In this document: piece after piece, positions 47,108 through 56,044 of the stretch | Position numbering within the stretch: the stretch's first letter is position 1 | Layout of the letters: each line of letters opens with the position of its first letter | Source: Neisseriaceae bacterium | GTDB taxonomy: Bacteria; Pseudomonadota; Gammaproteobacteria; Burkholderiales; UBA11063 | Length of the DNA: 64,000 nucleotides | NCBI GenBank assembly: GCA_947446595.1 | Contig: CANFGS010000003.1 | Coordinates: 1 to 64,000 of the forward strand | Reading direction: 5' to 3' | Position numbers and translations under genes: made by a program | Notes under the pieces: model-generated | Database searches by the model: none | What the model saw: only the letters and a program-made list of their open reading frames with translations | Told to the model about the DNA's origin: nothing

Positions 47108-47117
47108 CGAACTGGTT

Positions 47118-47161
47118 ATCAATGGGTCATCAATGGGTCATCAATGGGTCATCAATGCCCG
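47118..47161 (+). repeat. 11-bp tandem repeat upstream of truB
   Basis: ATCAATGGGTC occurs three times in perfect tandem (47118-47150) followed by a degenerate fourth copy ATCAATGCCCG (47151-47161). Each copy contains an ATG, but 11 is not a multiple of three, so the number of copies decides which ATG is in frame with truB; at present the second copy (47133) is. It sits between the AlbA-type gene and truB. Confidence 0.85.
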
Positions 47162-48290: not shown

Positions 48291-49330
48291 GCAGCAACAC
48301 TTTTAAATTTGTTTGAGCTATAATCTAGCGACTATGTATAATGGAGCTAAATTATGGATAAGTACAAACATTTAGGTGAGAATGAACGTTTTGTAATTGA
48401 GTTGATGTTAAATAAGGGCGATAGTCAAGGTGACATTGCCAAATTTCTGGGATATTCCAGGACAACTATTAGTCGGGAAATAAGCAGGAATAGTGTTGAT
48501 GGAAAGTACAACGCTACGCGGGCACAAGGTATGTATATATTGCGGCGTGAGTACCCAGAGCAGGATCGTAAATTCAATAAACTTAGTGACGAAGCAATAA
48601 AGTTTATTGTTGAGAACTTAAAAAAACGGAGCTCCCCCTGAGGTAATTAGCTATTTATTGAAAGCTGAATTGGGGATACAGATAAGCCGATATTTAATTT
48701 ATAAGTTTATCGAGTATAACATATACGTATTAGGTGGCAATTTACCGCTACCTAAGGAATCACGGTAAGCCCAGGAAAGCCAAAGTGGATGCCAGCAAGG
48801 TTAAAATAGTTGGCATAATAGGTATAGAACACAGACCGGAAATTGCCAGTAGCAAAGAAGAATACGGTCATTGTGAAGGTGACACAATAGTTAGCAAAGA
48901 CCACAATGGTATGGTAGTTACGTTAACTGAAAAGAAGACATTACAGGAATTTATAGTTCCGGTAGAAAATATGGACTCAATTACTGTAGCAAATGCTATA
49001 ATTGAGGTGTTTAAAAATCGGCCAGGCTCAATAATTAAAACCTTAACATTAGACAATGGGTTTGAATTTGCCCGGCATGATTTGATAACCAAAGAATTGG
49101 GGTGTGGTGTTTATTTTGCTAAACCTTATTGCTCAAACGATAAGGCATTGGTAGAAAATCACAACAGACTGATACGGGACTTTGTCCCTAAAGGTTCTGA
49201 TTTCAAGTTGATAAGTAAAGAATATTGGCGGGAAATTCAGGATATATTAAACAACCAGCCGCGTGAGATTCTGGGTTTTAAAACTCCGAATCAGATGGTA
49301 GCTCAAGAGCTTAAACTGTGTTGCTCTTGA
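48291..49330 (+). mobile_element. IS30-family insertion sequence, decayed
   Basis: An element of about 1.03 kb. Left end AGCAACACTTTTAA (about 48293-48306) is an imperfect inverted copy of TTAAACTGTGTTGCT (49311-49325) at the right end, and the transposase gene fills the space between, with its stop codon at the right inverted repeat. Size and gene fit the IS30 family. Two frameshifts break the transposase, so it is a relic. It sits exactly between the conserved truB operon and the O-polysaccharide island. Confidence 0.85.
48354..49330 (+). pseudogene. IS30-family transposase with two frameshifts
   Basis: The N-terminal part (48354-48641) has the IS30 helix-turn-helix: KYKHLGENERFVIELMLNKG, FLGYSRTTISREISRN. 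At the five-C run just before 48641 the frame shifts +1, giving PEVISYLLKAELGIQIS, and near 48735 it shifts +1 again to GNxYRYLRNHGKPRK and the DDE catalytic core: HCEGDTIVSKD (first Asp), LTLDNGFEF (second Asp) and KALVENHNRLIRDFVPKG (Glu). The stop is at 49328-49330. Removing one base from the C-run and one near 48735 restores a single reading frame of about 325 codons. So transposition in cis is not expected. Confidence 0.85.
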
Positions 49331-49359
49331 ATCCTGCGGGCGCGAAATAAGAGTATTTG

Positions 49360-50148
49360 ATGAAGATATTTGTACTTGCCTATAAAAACCAGAGATTATT
49401 ACTAAATCTTATCAGAAATGATTTTAAAAATAGATATCTAGGTAATCATTTGGGGATTGTATGGGCATTTATACAACCCCTTGTAATGGTTATGGTATAT
49501 TGGTTTGTGTTTGTACATGGTTTTAGAGCTACTCCTGTAGCGAATGTGCCATTTTTATTGTGGCTATTGGCTGGTATGGTTCCATGGTTTCTAATTAATG
49601 ATGCAATTGTTAGTGCAAGTAGTGCAATTACTAGTCAAAGTTTCTTAGTTAAAAAAATAGTCTTTGAAGTCAAATTAATCCCAATAGTCAAAATTGGTTC
49701 TGCAGTAATGGTGAATCTTGCATTTTGGGTTTTGATGCTAATAGTTTGTATCTGTTATGGTTATTATCCAAGCTTAATGTGGTTTCAGCTTATATACTAT
49801 ATGATTTGTATTCTTGCTCTGTCTTTGAGTATAAGTTTACTTTTATCAGCAGTTATGCCATTTATGCCAGATGTTGGACAAATAGTTAGTATATTTATGC
49901 AATTAATGTTTTGGGCCACCCCAATTTTTTGGAACAAATCTCTTCTAAAAGGACATATGGTTTTAATTTATAAGCTTAATCCCTTTTCCTATATTGTTAT
50001 TGGTTTTAGAGATTCATTAATTGATCATACTCCTATAATGGAACATTATAATCAAACTATTTATTTTTGGTGTTTAACTGCATTCTTATTCTGGTTTGGT
50101 AATAAAACGTTTAATAAACTTCGCCCACATTTTGCGGATGTGCTCTAG
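49360..50148 (+). CDS. wzm: ABC-2 polysaccharide exporter permease Wzm
   Basis: A 262-residue inner-membrane permease with six helices. NDFKNRYLGNHLGIVWAFIQP at the N-terminus is the classic Wzm/KpsM start; GMVPWFLINDAI and FWATPIFWNKSLLKGHMVLI are further family segments. Together with the ATPase it flips completed undecaprenyl-linked O-polysaccharide to the periplasm. The ATG at 49360 is used (a TTG is one codon earlier); AAGAG precedes it. It begins 29 bases after the IS relic, so its promoter may come from the IS end. The Wzt gene follows with a one-base gap. Confidence 0.92.
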   Translation: MKIFVLAYKNQRLLLNLIRNDFKNRYLGNHLGIVWAFIQPLVMVMVYWFVFVHGFRATPVANVPFLLWLLAGMVPWFLINDAIVSASSAITSQSFLVKKIVFEVKLIPIVKIGSAVMVNLAFWVLMLIVCICYGYYPSLMWFQLIYYMICILALSLSISLLLSAVMPFMPDVGQIVSIFMQLMFWATPIFWNKSLLKGHMVLIYKLNPFSYIVIGFRDSLIDHTPIMEHYNQTIYFWCLTAFLFWFGNKTFNKLRPHFADVL

Positions 50149-50149
50149 T

Positions 50150-51427
50150 ATGGATAAAGATATAGCAATCAAAGTAGAAAATCTATTTAAAGTATATAAG
50201 CTTTATAATGCACCCATAGATAGATTGAAAGAGGCGCTTCATTTGCGTAAGAAAAAGTATCATAAAGATTTCTATGCTTTAAGTGATGTATCTTTTGAGA
50301 TTAAAAAAGGTGAAACAGTAGGCATAATTGGAAAAAATGGCTCAGGAAAATCAACGTTACTAAAAATAATAACTGGTGTATTATCTCCTGCTGCTGGAAA
50401 AGTTACTGTTAATGGGCGAGTTTCAGCGCTATTAGAGCTTGGCGCTGGCTTCAATCCAGAATATACGGGGATTGAAAATATCTACTTTCAAGGCAGCTTG
50501 ATGAGGTACGAGCAAGAAGAGATGGATGCGAAACTACAAGAAATAGAAGATTTTGCAGATATTGGTGATTTTATTCACCAACCGGTCAAAATGTACTCTA
50601 GTGGTATGTTTGCCAGACTTGCATTTGCTGTTGCAATTAATGTAGAGCCTGATATACTGATAGTAGATGAGGCTTTAAGTGTTGGTGATATGGCATTCCA
50701 GTCAAAATGTTTTAATAAATTTAAAGAGTTCAGAGAAAAAGGAATTACAATTTTATTTGTAACACATTCTGTTGATACTGTGATTAAATATTGCCAATCT
50801 GCAATTTTAATAAATAATGGAGTAATTATAAAAAGTGGTGGCAGTAAAGAAACCGTTGAATTATTTCGTAAAATGATGGTTAATACTGCGAGAAGCAACA
50901 TTGTAGATGACTTTGGTAATGATGGTAATATACAACAACCAATACATTACAATTTAAAACAACAGTTGCCCTTGAACCCTAATGTAAATATTTATGGATC
51001 TATGGACGCTGAGATAATTGATTTTGGAATTATTAATCAAGATGGTGTAGTTACGAATCACTTATATCATGATGAAGATTATATCATACAAATTTCGGTT
51101 AAATTTAATGTGGATATATTAGATCCTATATTCGCATATACATTTAGGGATGTAAATGGATTAGAATTAACAGGTACAAATTCCTCGAATCTTAATCAAG
51201 AGTTTGGCTTAATAAAAAGTGGCGAGGTTATAACTGTAAAATTTAGTCAATCTATGATTTTAAATTCTGGGCAGTATTTTCTGGCTTTAGGTTGCGTTAA
51301 GTATTTTAGCAATAATTTAACAGTGTTTCATCGCATGTACGATGTAGTTGTTGTAGATGTGGTTTCTACTAATTTAGGTACAGGTGTAGCATTTACTGTG
51401 TCAGATGTTGAGATTATAAAGAATTAA
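50150..51427 (+). CDS. wzt: O-polysaccharide ABC transporter ATPase Wzt with C-terminal glycan-binding domain
   Basis: A 425-residue ATPase. Walker A GIIGKNGSGKSTLLKII (about residue 58), signature YSSGMFARLAFAVAI (about 147), Walker B ILIVDEALSVGD (about 170) and H-loop ILFVTHSVDTV. After about residue 240 comes a beta-sandwich (Wzt_C) domain of about 160 residues, beginning near DAEIIDFGIINQDG. In E. coli O9a and relatives this domain recognises the chemically capped end of the O-antigen, so it predicts a terminal modification on the exported glycan; the next two genes could supply it. The ATG at 50150, just after the Wzm stop, is preferred over 50096, which overlaps it. Confidence 0.94.
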   Translation: MDKDIAIKVENLFKVYKLYNAPIDRLKEALHLRKKKYHKDFYALSDVSFEIKKGETVGIIGKNGSGKSTLLKIITGVLSPAAGKVTVNGRVSALLELGAGFNPEYTGIENIYFQGSLMRYEQEEMDAKLQEIEDFADIGDFIHQPVKMYSSGMFARLAFAVAINVEPDILIVDEALSVGDMAFQSKCFNKFKEFREKGITILFVTHSVDTVIKYCQSAILINNGVIIKSGGSKETVELFRKMMVNTARSNIVDDFGNDGNIQQPIHYNLKQQLPLNPNVNIYGSMDAEIIDFGIINQDGVVTNHLYHDEDYIIQISVKFNVDILDPIFAYTFRDVNGLELTGTNSSNLNQEFGLIKSGEVITVKFSQSMILNSGQYFLALGCVKYFSNNLTVFHRMYDVVVVDVVSTNLGTGVAFTVSDVEIIKN

Positions 51428-51459: not shown

Positions 51460-52347
51460 ATGACAGTTTTAAATCTTAAGTATTATAATGGTCAAGATCT
51501 TTATTCTGATGGAGATGTTGAAGATGATATATTAAAAATTGTTAAAAATAATACTGATTTTACTGATATATTATGTAATGATAATCGCTGGGCTGTGATG
51601 TACCATCTCACTCCAATTAGACAAAATTTACTTGAGTGGTATGATTTTGATAAGAATGGAAGTTTACTTGAAATAGGTGGTGGATGTGGTGCGTTTTCTG
51701 GTATGTTTGCTGATAAAGTTAGAGATGTTAAGGTAGTTGAATTATCTAAAAGAAGAGCTGAGATAATTTATAATCGTCATAAAGATTATGATAATTTGGA
51801 AGTTATTGCAGGAAACTTAAATGATATTCAGTTTGATGACAAATTTGATTATATCACTTTAATAGGTGTTTTGGAGTATGCCGGTAAGTTTACTGCGGGT
51901 AATGATCCTTATAAAATATTTCTGGAAAAAATAAAAAAGTATCTTAAACCAAATGGTAAGTTATTAATTGCTATAGAAAATAAATTTGGATTGAAATACT
52001 GGGCTGGAGCAAAAGAGGATCATACTGGGAGAAATTTTGATAGTATTGAAAACTATCCTCATGATAAAAGTATTCAGACCTTTGGAAAGTATGAGTTGCA
52101 AGAATTATTAAAGTCTGTAGGATTTGAATATACTGACTTTTACTATCCTATGCCGGATTATAAATTGCCAGCCGTTATTTATTCTGATGATTATTTGCCT
52201 GATGAAGCTACTATTTTCAATGATGTATCACCTAATTTTGATCAAGAGCGGTATATTCTGTTTAACGAACAATTGGCTTTTAATAACATTATAAAGAATA
52301 AAATGTTTGATTTTTTTGCTAATTCTTTTTTAGTGGTGGCCAGTTAA
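51460..52347 (+). CDS. Class I SAM-dependent methyltransferase, probable O-polysaccharide chain terminator (WbdD methyltransferase-like)
   Basis: A 295-residue methyltransferase. The SAM motif is LLEIGGGCGAFSGMFADKV (about residues 68-86), an acidic VVELSKRRAEI follows, and FDYITLIGVLEYAGKF marks motif III. Later LKPNGKLLIAIENKFGLKYW and YPMPDYKLPAVIYSDDYLPD are segments I know from methyltransferases fused to a kinase domain in polysaccharide clusters. Its stop overlaps the ATG of the kinase-like gene by one base. Directly behind Wzt with a C-terminal glycan-binding domain, a role in capping the non-reducing end of the O-chain with methyl (or methyl phosphate) is the best inference. Confidence 0.82.
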   Translation: MTVLNLKYYNGQDLYSDGDVEDDILKIVKNNTDFTDILCNDNRWAVMYHLTPIRQNLLEWYDFDKNGSLLEIGGGCGAFSGMFADKVRDVKVVELSKRRAEIIYNRHKDYDNLEVIAGNLNDIQFDDKFDYITLIGVLEYAGKFTAGNDPYKIFLEKIKKYLKPNGKLLIAIENKFGLKYWAGAKEDHTGRNFDSIENYPHDKSIQTFGKYELQELLKSVGFEYTDFYYPMPDYKLPAVIYSDDYLPDEATIFNDVSPNFDQERYILFNEQLAFNNIIKNKMFDFFANSFLVVAS

Positions 52348-53303
52348 TGAAAACTATATTTGCTAAATATAATCGTGAAAGATTGCCACAATTTCAAACT
52401 GTAACAAAAATAGTTGAACTAAAAGATGGGAGTCGTAAAGTATTTAAGCAGGCTCTAAATATTAAAGCTAGTGGACATATTGCTGAAGTATTTTCTAATT
52501 ATACTCGTTTAACAGACAAATATCCACATATCAAGTTAGTTAAACCTGTACTTGAAAATGACTTAACGGTTAGTTTTCCAATTGTTCAAGGCGTATCATT
52601 GGATAAATTATTAAAGCAAGCCTTGGATAATCAAGATAAAGAAATCCTTTTAGCATTATTAAATAAATTTATTTCCTATGTTGATAGCTTTGTGGATGAG
52701 CGTCAAGTTAAGTTTGTGCCATGTGAAAAGTTTAAAATCGTTTTTGGAGATTGGCAGAGTAAAGAGCTACAGGATACTATTAGTCTTGCAAATATAGATT
52801 TGATATTCAGTAATTTATTCTTGAATGAAGACGAAACGATAGCACAAATTGATTACGAGTGGGTGTTTGAGTTTGCCATACCAGTTAAACTGGTTTTATT
52901 TAGATCTCTTGCAACTCTTCTAAATAGATTGTCTAATAATATTATTCTAAGTGGATATCGAGAGGAAATTATAGAGTTTTTTGGAATTAGTATGTCTGAA
53001 ATTAGCGAATATACTGATAATGAATCTCAATTCTACAAATATGTATATGGCTCAGAAAAAAAATATTTTTTAAACAATAATGTTTTAAAATTTAAAACTT
53101 CTATATTTGAAGAATTACAAAGTAAAGATCAAGAGTTACAAAGTAAAGATCAAGAGTTACAAAGTAAAGATCAAGAGTTACAAAATAAAGATCAGGAGTT
53201 AAATAGTTTACTTAATTCAAAAAGTTGGAGATTAACATCGCCGCTGAGAAAAATATTATATTTTTTTAACAGTAAAAAAGAATGGAAAGATAGATGTTTT
53301 TAA
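52347..53303 (+). CDS. Kinase-like protein with C-terminal heptad-repeat coiled coil (WbdD ruler-like)
   Basis: A 318-residue protein. Residues 1-230 resemble the small-kinase domain found after the methyltransferase in WbdD-type enzymes: VTKIVELKDGSRKVFKQAL (possible ATP-binding Lys), FPIVQGVSLDKLL as hinge, then IDLIFSNLFLNED (about 150-162; Asp and Asn of a catalytic loop) and IAQIDYEW (about 167-174; metal-binding Asp). Residues 256-287 are four heptads based on ELQSKDQ, a coiled coil, encoded by a 21-bp tandem repeat. The end, NSKSWRLTSPLRKILYFF, is an amphipathic tail of the kind seen on membrane-anchored polysaccharide enzymes. In WbdD the coiled coil sets O-antigen length. It overlaps its neighbours on both sides. 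Kinase assignment is from pattern, not alignment. Confidence 0.7.
   Translation: MKTIFAKYNRERLPQFQTVTKIVELKDGSRKVFKQALNIKASGHIAEVFSNYTRLTDKYPHIKLVKPVLENDLTVSFPIVQGVSLDKLLKQALDNQDKEILLALLNKFISYVDSFVDERQVKFVPCEKFKIVFGDWQSKELQDTISLANIDLIFSNLFLNEDETIAQIDYEWVFEFAIPVKLVLFRSLATLLNRLSNNIILSGYREEIIEFFGISMSEISEYTDNESQFYKYVYGSEKKYFLNNNVLKFKTSIFEELQSKDQELQSKDQELQSKDQELQNKDQELNSLLNSKSWRLTSPLRKILYFFNSKKEWKDRCF
53112..53195 (+). repeat. 21-bp tandem repeat, four copies, coding heptads
   Basis: Units at 53112-53132, 53133-53153, 53154-53174 and 53175-53195. Copies 2 and 3 are identical, copy 1 differs by one base and copy 4 by two or three. Each codes ELQSKDQ (copy 4 ELQNKDQ). Twenty-one bases equal seven codons, so gain or loss of a unit keeps frame and heptad register. 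A slippage-prone tract inside a coiled coil. Confidence 0.95.
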
Positions 53304-55060
53304 TTTTTCTATTATGGATTTTATTTTATTATCCATGTGTTTTTGTTTTATTTCGGTATAAATCTATCCAAAATATTATTTTGGGTTTAAAACAAGCAAA
53401 ATCTGTTTTTATTATCATTTCTACTATAATCGTATTAAATGCATTTGTTATTTTTTACATCTCTCATGAAAAATATATATACTTCTGGGATTCCGCTGGA
53501 TATTGGGATATTTTACTTAATAGTATCAAATTTGTTTCAAACAGTACCTTTAATGAAACATTGATAAATTTAATAAACAGTATAAATAATGATGATTACA
53601 ATGTATTTGCTGCTTACCTACTAGTTCCTACGGCAAAATTTTTGGGTATCACTAGGCTAGACTATATTTTAAGTATTTTAAATTTATTCTTGATTCCTGC
53701 AGTTTTTTTTATTTCAATTATTATTAAACAAATTCTAATAGACTTTTTTAAACTTGAATCGATAAAATTTGAATATGTTTTTGTCTTAACTGCTATTTTC
53801 CCCCCCATCTTGTTTCCAATGTTAAGAGGTTATTTAGATGTACTAGGATTAATCCCAGTTAGTTGTTTGATTTTAATATTAATGAATGAAGAATTTAAAC
53901 GAATTAATATTCTAACACATTTAACAATTGCAGTCGCTATATTAATAATCTTGTTTTCTAGGCGATGGTATGCTTTTTTTGTGGTTTCATTTTTATTCTC
54001 TTTTGGGGTGGTTTTTTTAATAGAAATATTAAAAAATTCCAATAGATGGCTTTGGCTGCAAAAAGCTATCTTTAATTGGCTAATTACTTTTAGTTTTATC
54101 TTTTTAATACTATTTTGCTTTTTTAAAGGGTTTTTATTAAAAAGTGCTGGTGTTGATTATTCTTATTTCTATAGTGCATATAAACATGGTGGTTTTCTGT
54201 CCAATATTATCGCTTTAATTAATTATTTTGGCCTTTTTTTAATTTTCATATGTACAGTATCACTTAAAAAAATATTTAACCTAAAAATAACTATAGTATT
54301 ATTTCTTCAACTAATTATAGCGTACTACTTATTTTTTTCAGTTCAATCTTTTGGAGCACAGCACTATTATATTTTGACAGTGGCTATACTTGTTTTATTT
54401 TTTATTGGGTTTAATTTTTTATTAACACAAGTAAAATCGTCAAGTTCATTAATATTTATATTTATAGTGGTTGCATGGATATTGCAAAGTTATAATACTT
54501 TTATTATGCCTGTAAAATATTCTCATTTATTTATTAAATATCCAGAATACCCTCTTTATAGGAACGATATTGGAGATATTAAACATTTATCGCATGCAAT
54601 TGCAAATTTGGATGGTAGCATATACGTTTTAGCTAGTTCTGCTGAATTGAATGATGATATCTTAAGAAAAGTAAATATGCCAGAAAGTGATAACGCTGTC
54701 TCTAACATGCTTCCGACAAGTCACATTGATTTAGCATCAGGCTTCCCTTTTCAATTGTTTGATGCAAAGTATATTTTAGTTGCAAGCCCTATCGATCTAC
54801 ATGCAGGTCAAAAAAATCAACAGGATGTTTATTTTTTTGCTAATTATATTATGCATGGGATTTCTTTCGGAAAAAACTATACTAAAATAAATACTTTTAA
54901 AATTGGAAAACAAATTGTTGTAAATCTTTATCAAAAAACTAAATGTTTTACAGAAACTGATTTATTAACAATATCAGATTACTTTAGGGACTACTATAAA
55001 AATGATGATAGATTTAATAACTTATATCCTTTAATAAAAAAATATAAGTGCTTAAATTAA
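53294..55060 (+). CDS. Multi-pass membrane protein, probable GT-C type glycosyltransferase
   Basis: A 588-residue protein with about 11 hydrophobic helices in residues 1-420 and a soluble C-terminal part. An early periplasmic loop has FWDSAGYWDI, with acidic residues where GT-C enzymes hold the catalytic Asp; LFSRRWYAFFVVSF is another recognisable patch. GT-C enzymes use polyprenyl-phosphate sugars in the periplasm. The next gene encodes a polyprenyl-phosphate glycosyltransferase (GtrB/DPM1 type), which would supply such a donor, so the pair may add side-branch sugars to the O-chain. The start overlaps the upstream stop by 10 bases. Substrate unknown. Confidence 0.65.
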   Translation: MFLIFLLWILFYYPCVFVLFRYKSIQNIILGLKQAKSVFIIISTIIVLNAFVIFYISHEKYIYFWDSAGYWDILLNSIKFVSNSTFNETLINLINSINNDDYNVFAAYLLVPTAKFLGITRLDYILSILNLFLIPAVFFISIIIKQILIDFFKLESIKFEYVFVLTAIFPPILFPMLRGYLDVLGLIPVSCLILILMNEEFKRINILTHLTIAVAILIILFSRRWYAFFVVSFLFSFGVVFLIEILKNSNRWLWLQKAIFNWLITFSFIFLILFCFFKGFLLKSAGVDYSYFYSAYKHGGFLSNIIALINYFGLFLIFICTVSLKKIFNLKITIVLFLQLIIAYYLFFSVQSFGAQHYYILTVAILVLFFIGFNFLLTQVKSSSSLIFIFIVVAWILQSYNTFIMPVKYSHLFIKYPEYPLYRNDIGDIKHLSHAIANLDGSIYVLASSAELNDDILRKVNMPESDNAVSNMLPTSHIDLASGFPFQLFDAKYILVASPIDLHAGQKNQQDVYFFANYIMHGISFGKNYTKINTFKIGKQIVVNLYQKTKCFTETDLLTISDYFRDYYKNDDRFNNLYPLIKKYKCLN

Positions 55061-55114
55061 ATCAGATGCCTTTAGATCGTGTAAAATCAATATTTTTTTA
55101 ATGGGTTTTATTTT

Positions 55115-56044
55115 ATGAAAAAATTATCTATTGTTATACCTGTATATTTTAATGAAAAAAATTTACTGGATACTTATGCTAAATTAGCCGAAGAGGTCTT
55201 TCCACATCTTCCTGATTATGAATTAATACTAGTTGATGATGGTTCAGGTGATGACTCATATTCTGAGATGCTGAAATTGCGTGATATGAATGACAGGGTA
55301 AAGTTAATAAAGTTTTCGCGTAATTTTGGTCATCATATTGCAGTATATGCTGGTTTAGAGCATATAACTGGTGATTGTGCTGTGGTTATTTCAGCTGACC
55401 TTCAGGATCCGCCTAGTTTGATTGTAGATTTATATAATAAATATTTAGAGGGATATAAAATTGTTTTGGCTGTTCGTAAGGGGCGTGATGAACCATTTAT
55501 GCAGAGACTTTTTTCCGGTATTTATTATAAGTTAATGAAGAAATACGCAATTAAAGATATGCCATTAGGTGGTTTTGATTGCTTTTTAGCAGATAGGCAA
55601 GTTATAGAAACTTTAACTAAAATTGAAGAAAAGAATACGTCGCTATTTGCCCAGATATTATGGTTGGGATTTAAACGTGCTGAAGTATATTATGTTCGTC
55701 AAGCAAGACAAGTTGGTGAATCAAGATATACGTTATCAAAAAAAGTTAAATTATTATTAGATTCATTATTAGCCTTCTCTTATGTGCCAATTAGAGTGAT
55801 TTCATTAATTGGTGTAATTGACTGCCTGTTAAGTTTTACATATGCTTTGTATATTATAATTCATAAGGTTATGTATGGCTATTCTGTAGGTTGGTCATCG
55901 CTAATGGTAGCGATAATGTTTAGTTCTGGAGTGCAGATGCTTACCCTTGGTGTAATTGGGGAGTATTTGTGGCGTAATTTTGATGAGAGTCGTAAACGTC
56001 CACTATATGTTCTTGACCAGCTTCAAGGTATACGTAAGTTATAA
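55115..56044 (+). CDS. Polyprenyl-phosphate glycosyltransferase (GT2, GtrB/ArnC/DPM1 type)
   Basis: A 309-residue GT2 enzyme with two C-terminal membrane helices (about 232-255 and 265-290). Catalytic motifs are LSIVIPVYFNEKNL, LILVDDGSGDDS (donor Asp), VVISADLQDPPSLI (DxD-like, ADLQDPP is the DPM1/GtrB hallmark) and GESRYTLSKKVKLLLDS, which follows the RYT(L)xxK pattern of ArnC/GtrB. It transfers a sugar from a nucleotide donor to undecaprenyl phosphate on the cytoplasmic side. Paired with the preceding GT-C protein it fits an O-chain decoration route (inference). No flippase gene (GtrA) is seen next to it. Confidence 0.9.
   Translation: MKKLSIVIPVYFNEKNLLDTYAKLAEEVFPHLPDYELILVDDGSGDDSYSEMLKLRDMNDRVKLIKFSRNFGHHIAVYAGLEHITGDCAVVISADLQDPPSLIVDLYNKYLEGYKIVLAVRKGRDEPFMQRLFSGIYYKLMKKYAIKDMPLGGFDCFLADRQVIETLTKIEEKNTSLFAQILWLGFKRAEVYYVRQARQVGESRYTLSKKVKLLLDSLLAFSYVPIRVISLIGVIDCLLSFTYALYIIIHKVMYGYSVGWSSLMVAIMFSSGVQMLTLGVIGEYLWRNFDESRKRPLYVLDQLQGIRKL

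Follow-up and report, generated by a model that had tools for sequence, protein, structure and literature searches.

The terminator of the Klebsiella pneumoniae O7 polysaccharide, ORF6, combines a biochemically proven methyltransferase with a kinase that lacks annotation and is structurally closest to AmiN, and in characterised terminators the enzyme that ends the chain consistently sits at the far tip of a coil (PMC11231755). In WbdD, found in E. coli O9/O9a and K. pneumoniae O3, methyltransferase, kinase and coil follow one another in a single polypeptide, and the length of the coil, about 20 nm, sets the length of the chain (PMC5082667). Heptads encoded by a tandem DNA repeat are known from NeuO, the polysialate O-acetyltransferase of E. 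coli K1, whose poly-psi VNTR of 7-bp units, three per heptad, encodes 1-31 heptads in isolates; these RLKTQDS heptads are built by slippage and raise the efficiency of the enzyme linearly, and structural data do not bear out the coiled coil proposed for them (PMC3046976). Phase variation that governs O-antigen chain length has been described for opvAB of Salmonella, a locus of two small inner-membrane proteins (PMC3350482). The gene pair described here, from a Neisseriaceae bacterium, is most likely a split form of the O7-type methyl-phosphate terminator, and O7 rather than WbdD is its nearest described system.

Within the window, by which is meant the whole 64-kb stretch of DNA that was analysed, an ABC-export polysaccharide cluster lies behind truB and a two-part IS30 remnant (Table 1). 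The presence of both Wzm and a Wzt with a C-terminal carbohydrate-binding module (CBM) identifies ABC-dependent export with recognition of capped chains, and this Wzt is 38% identical over 416 aa to the Wzt of E. coli HS (O9). The first-pass annotation, made from the sequence alone, had placed a methyltransferase directly behind a Wzt with a C-terminal glycan-binding domain and, overlapping it by one base, a protein with a kinase-like pattern. Both the gene order and the overlap were borne out: position 52347 is common to the methyltransferase, P0002, and the kinase-like P0001, whose ORF begins at the final base of the methyltransferase stop codon (TAATG). At its 3' end P0001 overlaps by 10 bases the gene of a membrane protein of 588 aa, behind which come glycosyltransferases and an epimerase-like protein. 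The membrane protein belongs to no Pfam family and is followed by a GT2 that itself looks like a polyprenyl-phosphate sugar synthase; together (window 53294-56044) they resemble part of a putative periplasmic side-chain glycosylation system. On the other side of the cluster, the IS30-family transposase is split into two ORFs between truB and wzm (window 48354-49330), and the 5' end of truB holds an 11-bp tandem repeat, GGTCATCAATG x4 (96%, window 47114-47157); because every unit contains an ATG, the frame in which a start is on offer would change with the number of copies.

Table 1. Features of the terminator locus, in window coordinates
Feature	Position	Strand	Basis or detail
Wzm-like ABC-2 export permease	49357..50148	+	PF01061 4.8e-20
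Wzt-like ATPase with C-terminal glycan-binding domain Wzt_C	50147..51427	+	PF14524 3.5e-31, ABC_tran 1.6e-25
Class I SAM methyltransferase P0002 (predicted methylating half of terminator)	51460..52347	+	PF13489 7.5e-13
P0001, 318 aa, kinase-like ORF	52347..53303	+	ORF list
Kinase domain of P0001, residues 1-243 (predicted phosphorylating half)	52347..53075	+	AlphaFold model, structural matches, invariant residues
21-bp tandem array (TRF extent 53110-53201, 4.4 copies, 95% matches), four units	53112..53195	+	ELQSKDQ x3, ELQNKDQ
Helical spacer, residues 255-290	53109..53216	+	model secondary structure; core register LKLKLKLKLL
Basic tail (residues 291-318) with the motif SKSWRLTSPLR; predicted to anchor the protein to a membrane or complex	53217..53300	+	

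Pfam and NCBIfam searches of P0001 returned no kinase family, and sequence searches of the PDB, with P0001 alone or as a profile, gave no meaningful match; because sequence libraries do not recognise residues 1-243, the kinase fold had to be taken from a model. The AlphaFold model has a mean pLDDT of 86, exceeding 90 for most of residues 1-230, and its residues 1-243 match APH(3')-Ia (Z 14.6, 3.6 A over 197 residues), the amicoumacin kinase AmiN (6sum; Z 13.2) and the choline kinase LicA (Z 12.0). Residues K34, D151, N156 and D169, which we take to be the kinase lysine, the catalytic Asp, the Mg-binding Asn and the DFG-type Asp, are invariant in all 16 kinase sequences aligned. The structural matches and the invariant catalytic set support the kinase guessed from the sequence pattern, and the model confirms a true kinase fold for residues 1-243. 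WbdD is absent among the structural matches listed, which excludes nothing. The model of P0002 (pLDDT 86.6) has structural matches at Z about 16-17.6, phosphoethanolamine methyltransferases among them.

Compared by the residue numbers given in the O7 paper only (PMC11231755), the SAM-site residues Y66, G91, G93, E112 and Y158 of ORF6-O7 correspond to Y48, G73, G75, E94 and Y140 of P0002 at a constant offset of 18, and Y28 corresponds to Y15 across a 5-residue indel. P0001 supplies the APH/AmiN-like fold and the catalytic Asp of an O7-type kinase. The SAM residues at one offset, together with the kinase fold, thus place the pair with the O7 type and not with WbdD. Other likenesses to ORF6 are a kinase that is invisible to Pfam, the coil behind it, the Wzm/Wzt system, and fused relatives that occur in the same order as the window genome (L067 and L068). 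Unlike ORF6, the window pair consists of two overlapping genes, has a short coil of tandem heptads, and is without both the CBM that follows the kinase of ORF6 and its C-terminal glycosyltransferase modules.

The pair had at first been called WbdD-like, and the name fits in part. Shared with WbdD are a methyltransferase and a kinase beside a CBM-type Wzt, the predicted methyl-phosphate cap, the methyltransferase-kinase-coil order, and an SW(R/K)xT motif after the coil; the WbdD coil is directly followed by SRSWRMTKGYR, the same motif as that in the tail of P0001, which argues that the order of enzyme, coil and anchor is common to both. The kinase half of WbdD resembles eukaryotic protein kinases and that of P0001 is APH-like; a profile of the latter (A1) gives WbdD a probability of 0.1%, with no sequence similarity, both proteins falling within the broad kinase-like fold. 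WbdD also differs from the two ORFs of the window in being one polypeptide, with a longer C-terminal region that recruits WbdA.

A genome scan recovered 15 relatives of the kinase, from Sulfurospirillum, Paenibacillus, Clostridia/Lachnospiraceae and one Woykebacteria genome, and the Wzt-methyltransferase-kinase neighbourhood is kept in those from Campylobacterota, Bacillota and the CPR genome. A CBM-type Wzt is tightly linked in 12 of the 15; the methyltransferase lies directly upstream of the kinase or is fused to it (L010, L016), and Wzt precedes in most. Both genes are in view at 14 loci, and at 12 of these they are split, with spacings that lie between a gap of 18 bases and an overlap of 4, so that the split, rightly read from the two ORFs of the window, is the common state of the family and not unusual. 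In the nearest relative (L002) the methyltransferase is 74% identical to that of the window and the kinase only 40%, and the kinase half therefore evolves much faster. In the Woykebacteria relative (L014), which shares the kinase-coil-tail build but has neither glycosyltransferase modules nor a DNA repeat, the coil is shorter by two heptads, exactly 14 residues. Closer to the window genome, kinase searches of the phylum and order gave two distant fused proteins and nothing else, and no relative of P0001 beyond its tail was found in the same genus. Only one genus genome (G012) has the methyltransferase (76% identical), and its sequence stops inside that gene; there, an AAA_21 ATPase and RloB pair lies between Wzt and the methyltransferase homologue (L050:3075-5209).

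Best fitting these comparisons, with a probability of roughly 60%, is a split O7-type methyl-phosphate terminator with a heptad-built spacer that caps an ABC-exported surface polysaccharide. The pair probably caps completed chains of surface sugars. In the scheme that we infer, for substrate and capping reaction as for ruler function and chain-length effect, the APH-like kinase would phosphorylate a finished chain at its non-reducing end, the methyltransferase would then methylate the terminal phosphate, and the glycan-binding domain of Wzt would allow export of capped chains only. The helical spacer and its SWRxTxPLR anchor would hold the kinase off the membrane and the polymerising enzymes, a ruler step for P0001 that leans on the work on WbdD and Klebsiella. 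The spacer probably grew as entire 21-bp heptad units were duplicated in tandem, a route that recurs in the evolution of this class of proteins, so that its length, and probably the modal chain length too, would change in heptad steps between lineages.

The spacer had been reported as four exact heptads coded by a 21-bp tandem repeat, and the tandem repeat is real, with three exact heptads and a fourth in which S is replaced by N. Copies 2 and 3 are identical in DNA; copy 1 departs from them by 1 base and copy 4 by 2. In self-matching at lag 21 the array scores 59, whereas 2000 codon shuffles of the gene never exceed 14 and the score stays below 18 everywhere else in the 64-kb window; synonymous codons agree between copies more than codon usage would lead one to expect, codon pairs being identical in 33 of 42 cases, compared with 22.7 expected (P = 0.0075). 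The units are in frame, in tandem and almost identical, as those of a VNTR locus would be, and the exact 21-bp pattern was found, among 23 genus genomes, in the window only. The AlphaFold model runs one continuous helix, residues 252-313, through array and tail. The spacer has 36 residues, or about 5 nm against the roughly 20 nm of WbdD (PMC5082667), and its core is Leu-Lys (or Leu-Asp) with one Leu per heptad, which makes an oligomeric coiled coil doubtful. As a canonical coiled coil, the predicted heptad helix would thus be weak. The tail, described as basic and amphipathic, is basic, but it is short, and its amphipathicity is moderate, with a moment of about 0.39 where the strongest WbdD helix has 0.76.

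A survey of tail-bearing coils from the order and genus, in which an array was counted if it lay within 450 nt of the tail, found coil proteins with the P0001-type tail motif in 68 of 300 genomes of the order. Arrays are present in 15 of 38 SWRxTxPLR-tailed coils. The best period is 21, 42, 63 or 105 bp in 13 of the 15, and a multiple of 21 in all nine arrays of at least 90% identity; the binomial P of about 8e-10 for the 13 assumes that any in-frame period is equally likely (1/7), a generous null because helices already have a 7-residue periodicity that favours slippage in heptad register. The nearest relative, from Sulfurospirillum, has a 105-bp x 2.7 array (98%). Besides the P0001 kinase, the array-bearing enzymes include methyltransferases (MT-type in G013 and G645, FkbM in G469, Methyltransf_24 in G560), a Sulfotransfer_3-like protein (G480), glycosyltransferases (GT2 in G004 and G022, GT4 in G018) and an RgpF-like protein (G005), and several of them lie beside Wzt, which strengthens the earlier report of a whole-heptad coil repeat next to this transporter. 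Since the repeats differ by protein (ELQSKDQ, AELSSTQ, SELSNTQ, TKAQQAE, AARDAQL and others), the arrays arose repeatedly. Heptad-multiple periods on unrelated enzymes point to extension of the coils by whole-heptad duplication, and suggest that spacer length evolves by heptad addition. Two proteins with a coil and an SWxxT tail are candidate sulfating chain terminators, judged from their sequences: a Sulfotransfer_3 match directly behind Wzt, with a 42-bp x 3.5 heptad array (L107:593-1825, minus strand), and a sulfotransferase-like protein directly behind Wzt, so assigned by visual inspection of its N-terminal sequence only (L118:3365-7930, minus strand).

The same breadth counts against the terminator reading, as similar arrays on glycosyltransferases do not necessarily belong to terminators. 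On a less probable reading the heptads would measure nothing and would serve as a tolerant helical linker that joins the enzyme to its membrane anchor, where tandem duplications accumulate because the register of the helix is kept. Arrays on enzymes as diverse as GT2, GT4 and RgpF-like proteins would be expected of such a linker, as would polar core residues and the 23 of 38 tailed coils that have no array. Against it, the periods of high-identity arrays are almost exclusively multiples of 21, which implies a role for register, and in the described systems the chain length made by WbdD follows from the length of its coil, and coils are a consistent feature of terminators (PMC5082667, PMC11231755).

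A stronger claim, made in the first-pass annotation, is that replication slippage alters the array among the cells of a population, such that the rulers of sister cells differ by one heptad and modal chain length varies. The near-identical 21-bp units with diverged edge copies are consistent with this, and NeuO is a precedent in which in-frame heptad VNTRs grade enzyme activity in nature (PMC3046976). Two genomes of genus relatives bear on the question, the comparison covering one genome per species. Two contigs of G013 end inside a 21-bp array, one on each side (L055:9520-9600, 81 bp; L053:10699-10775, 77 bp), and together look like one methyltransferase-CBM-coil-tail gene broken at the repeat. 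In the GT2 gene of G022, an indel within a 21-bp x 5.6 array shifts the frame and cuts the tail off (L054:13066-13181), and is either a real off-state or an assembly error. Contig breaks and indel alike may be assembly artefacts, however, and as a VNTR four imperfect units are modest. The proven ruler, moreover, has no tandem array in E. coli, and every one of the 48 full-length wbdD copies sampled from 210 genomes, with identities as low as 89.9%, measures exactly 2127 bp, so that variable length is no general property of rulers. The regions of E. coli H53 and H49 hold only wbdD remnants truncated by IS1. Searches for close orthologues of two array-bearing methyltransferases gave none in 18 genus relatives and only proteins about 50% identical in 85, and terminators thus turn over too fast for copy-number comparison; in the two methyltransferases themselves the tail was not found. 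No report of tandem-repeat variation in O-chain rulers was found in the open-access literature, a weak negative as subscription papers lie partly outside it. The proposed variation resembles that of opvAB in its effect on chain length, but opvAB is not a tandem repeat inside a terminator. Slippage in the population is accordingly doubtful, and so is its generalisation, in which the rulers of ABC-dependent polysaccharides would form an adjustable class whose 21n-bp coil repeats slip in growing populations in steps of about 1 nm without loss of frame.

The resemblance to NeuO allows another reading, in which the charged heptads act on the binding of the acceptor or on the efficiency of catalysis and not on distance. 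RLKTQDS is similar in composition to ELQSKDQ, and the NeuO repeat is both slippage-built and linear in its effect (PMC3046976). Yet that repeat is N-terminal, switches between on and off frames and serves no ruler, and its graded variation is demonstrated, whereas that of the window array is hypothetical. The window array is placed, like the coil of WbdD, between the enzyme domain and a tail of membrane type rather than at a free N-terminus, and is predicted to form a single continuous helix; tuning of this kind is unlikely here. That the target of the pair is not the chain end but, for instance, an internal sugar or a lipid-linked primer, finds some support in the many small-molecule kinases within the APH-like fold but is improbable, given the tight linkage of most relatives to CBM-type Wzt and the correspondence with a terminator that has been proven by biochemistry.

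If the heptad arrays of terminator coils set polysaccharide length, then the length of a surface glycan would be readable, and partly predictable, from repeat number in the genome. The molecular-ruler model has so far reportedly been established by engineered insertions and deletions in WbdD, and the arrays would provide a natural allelic series in which to test it. The survey makes the repeat-ruler idea testable in many non-pathogenic bacteria, and yields candidate terminators of unexpected chemistry, such as the sulfotransferase-like proteins with heptad arrays directly behind Wzt.
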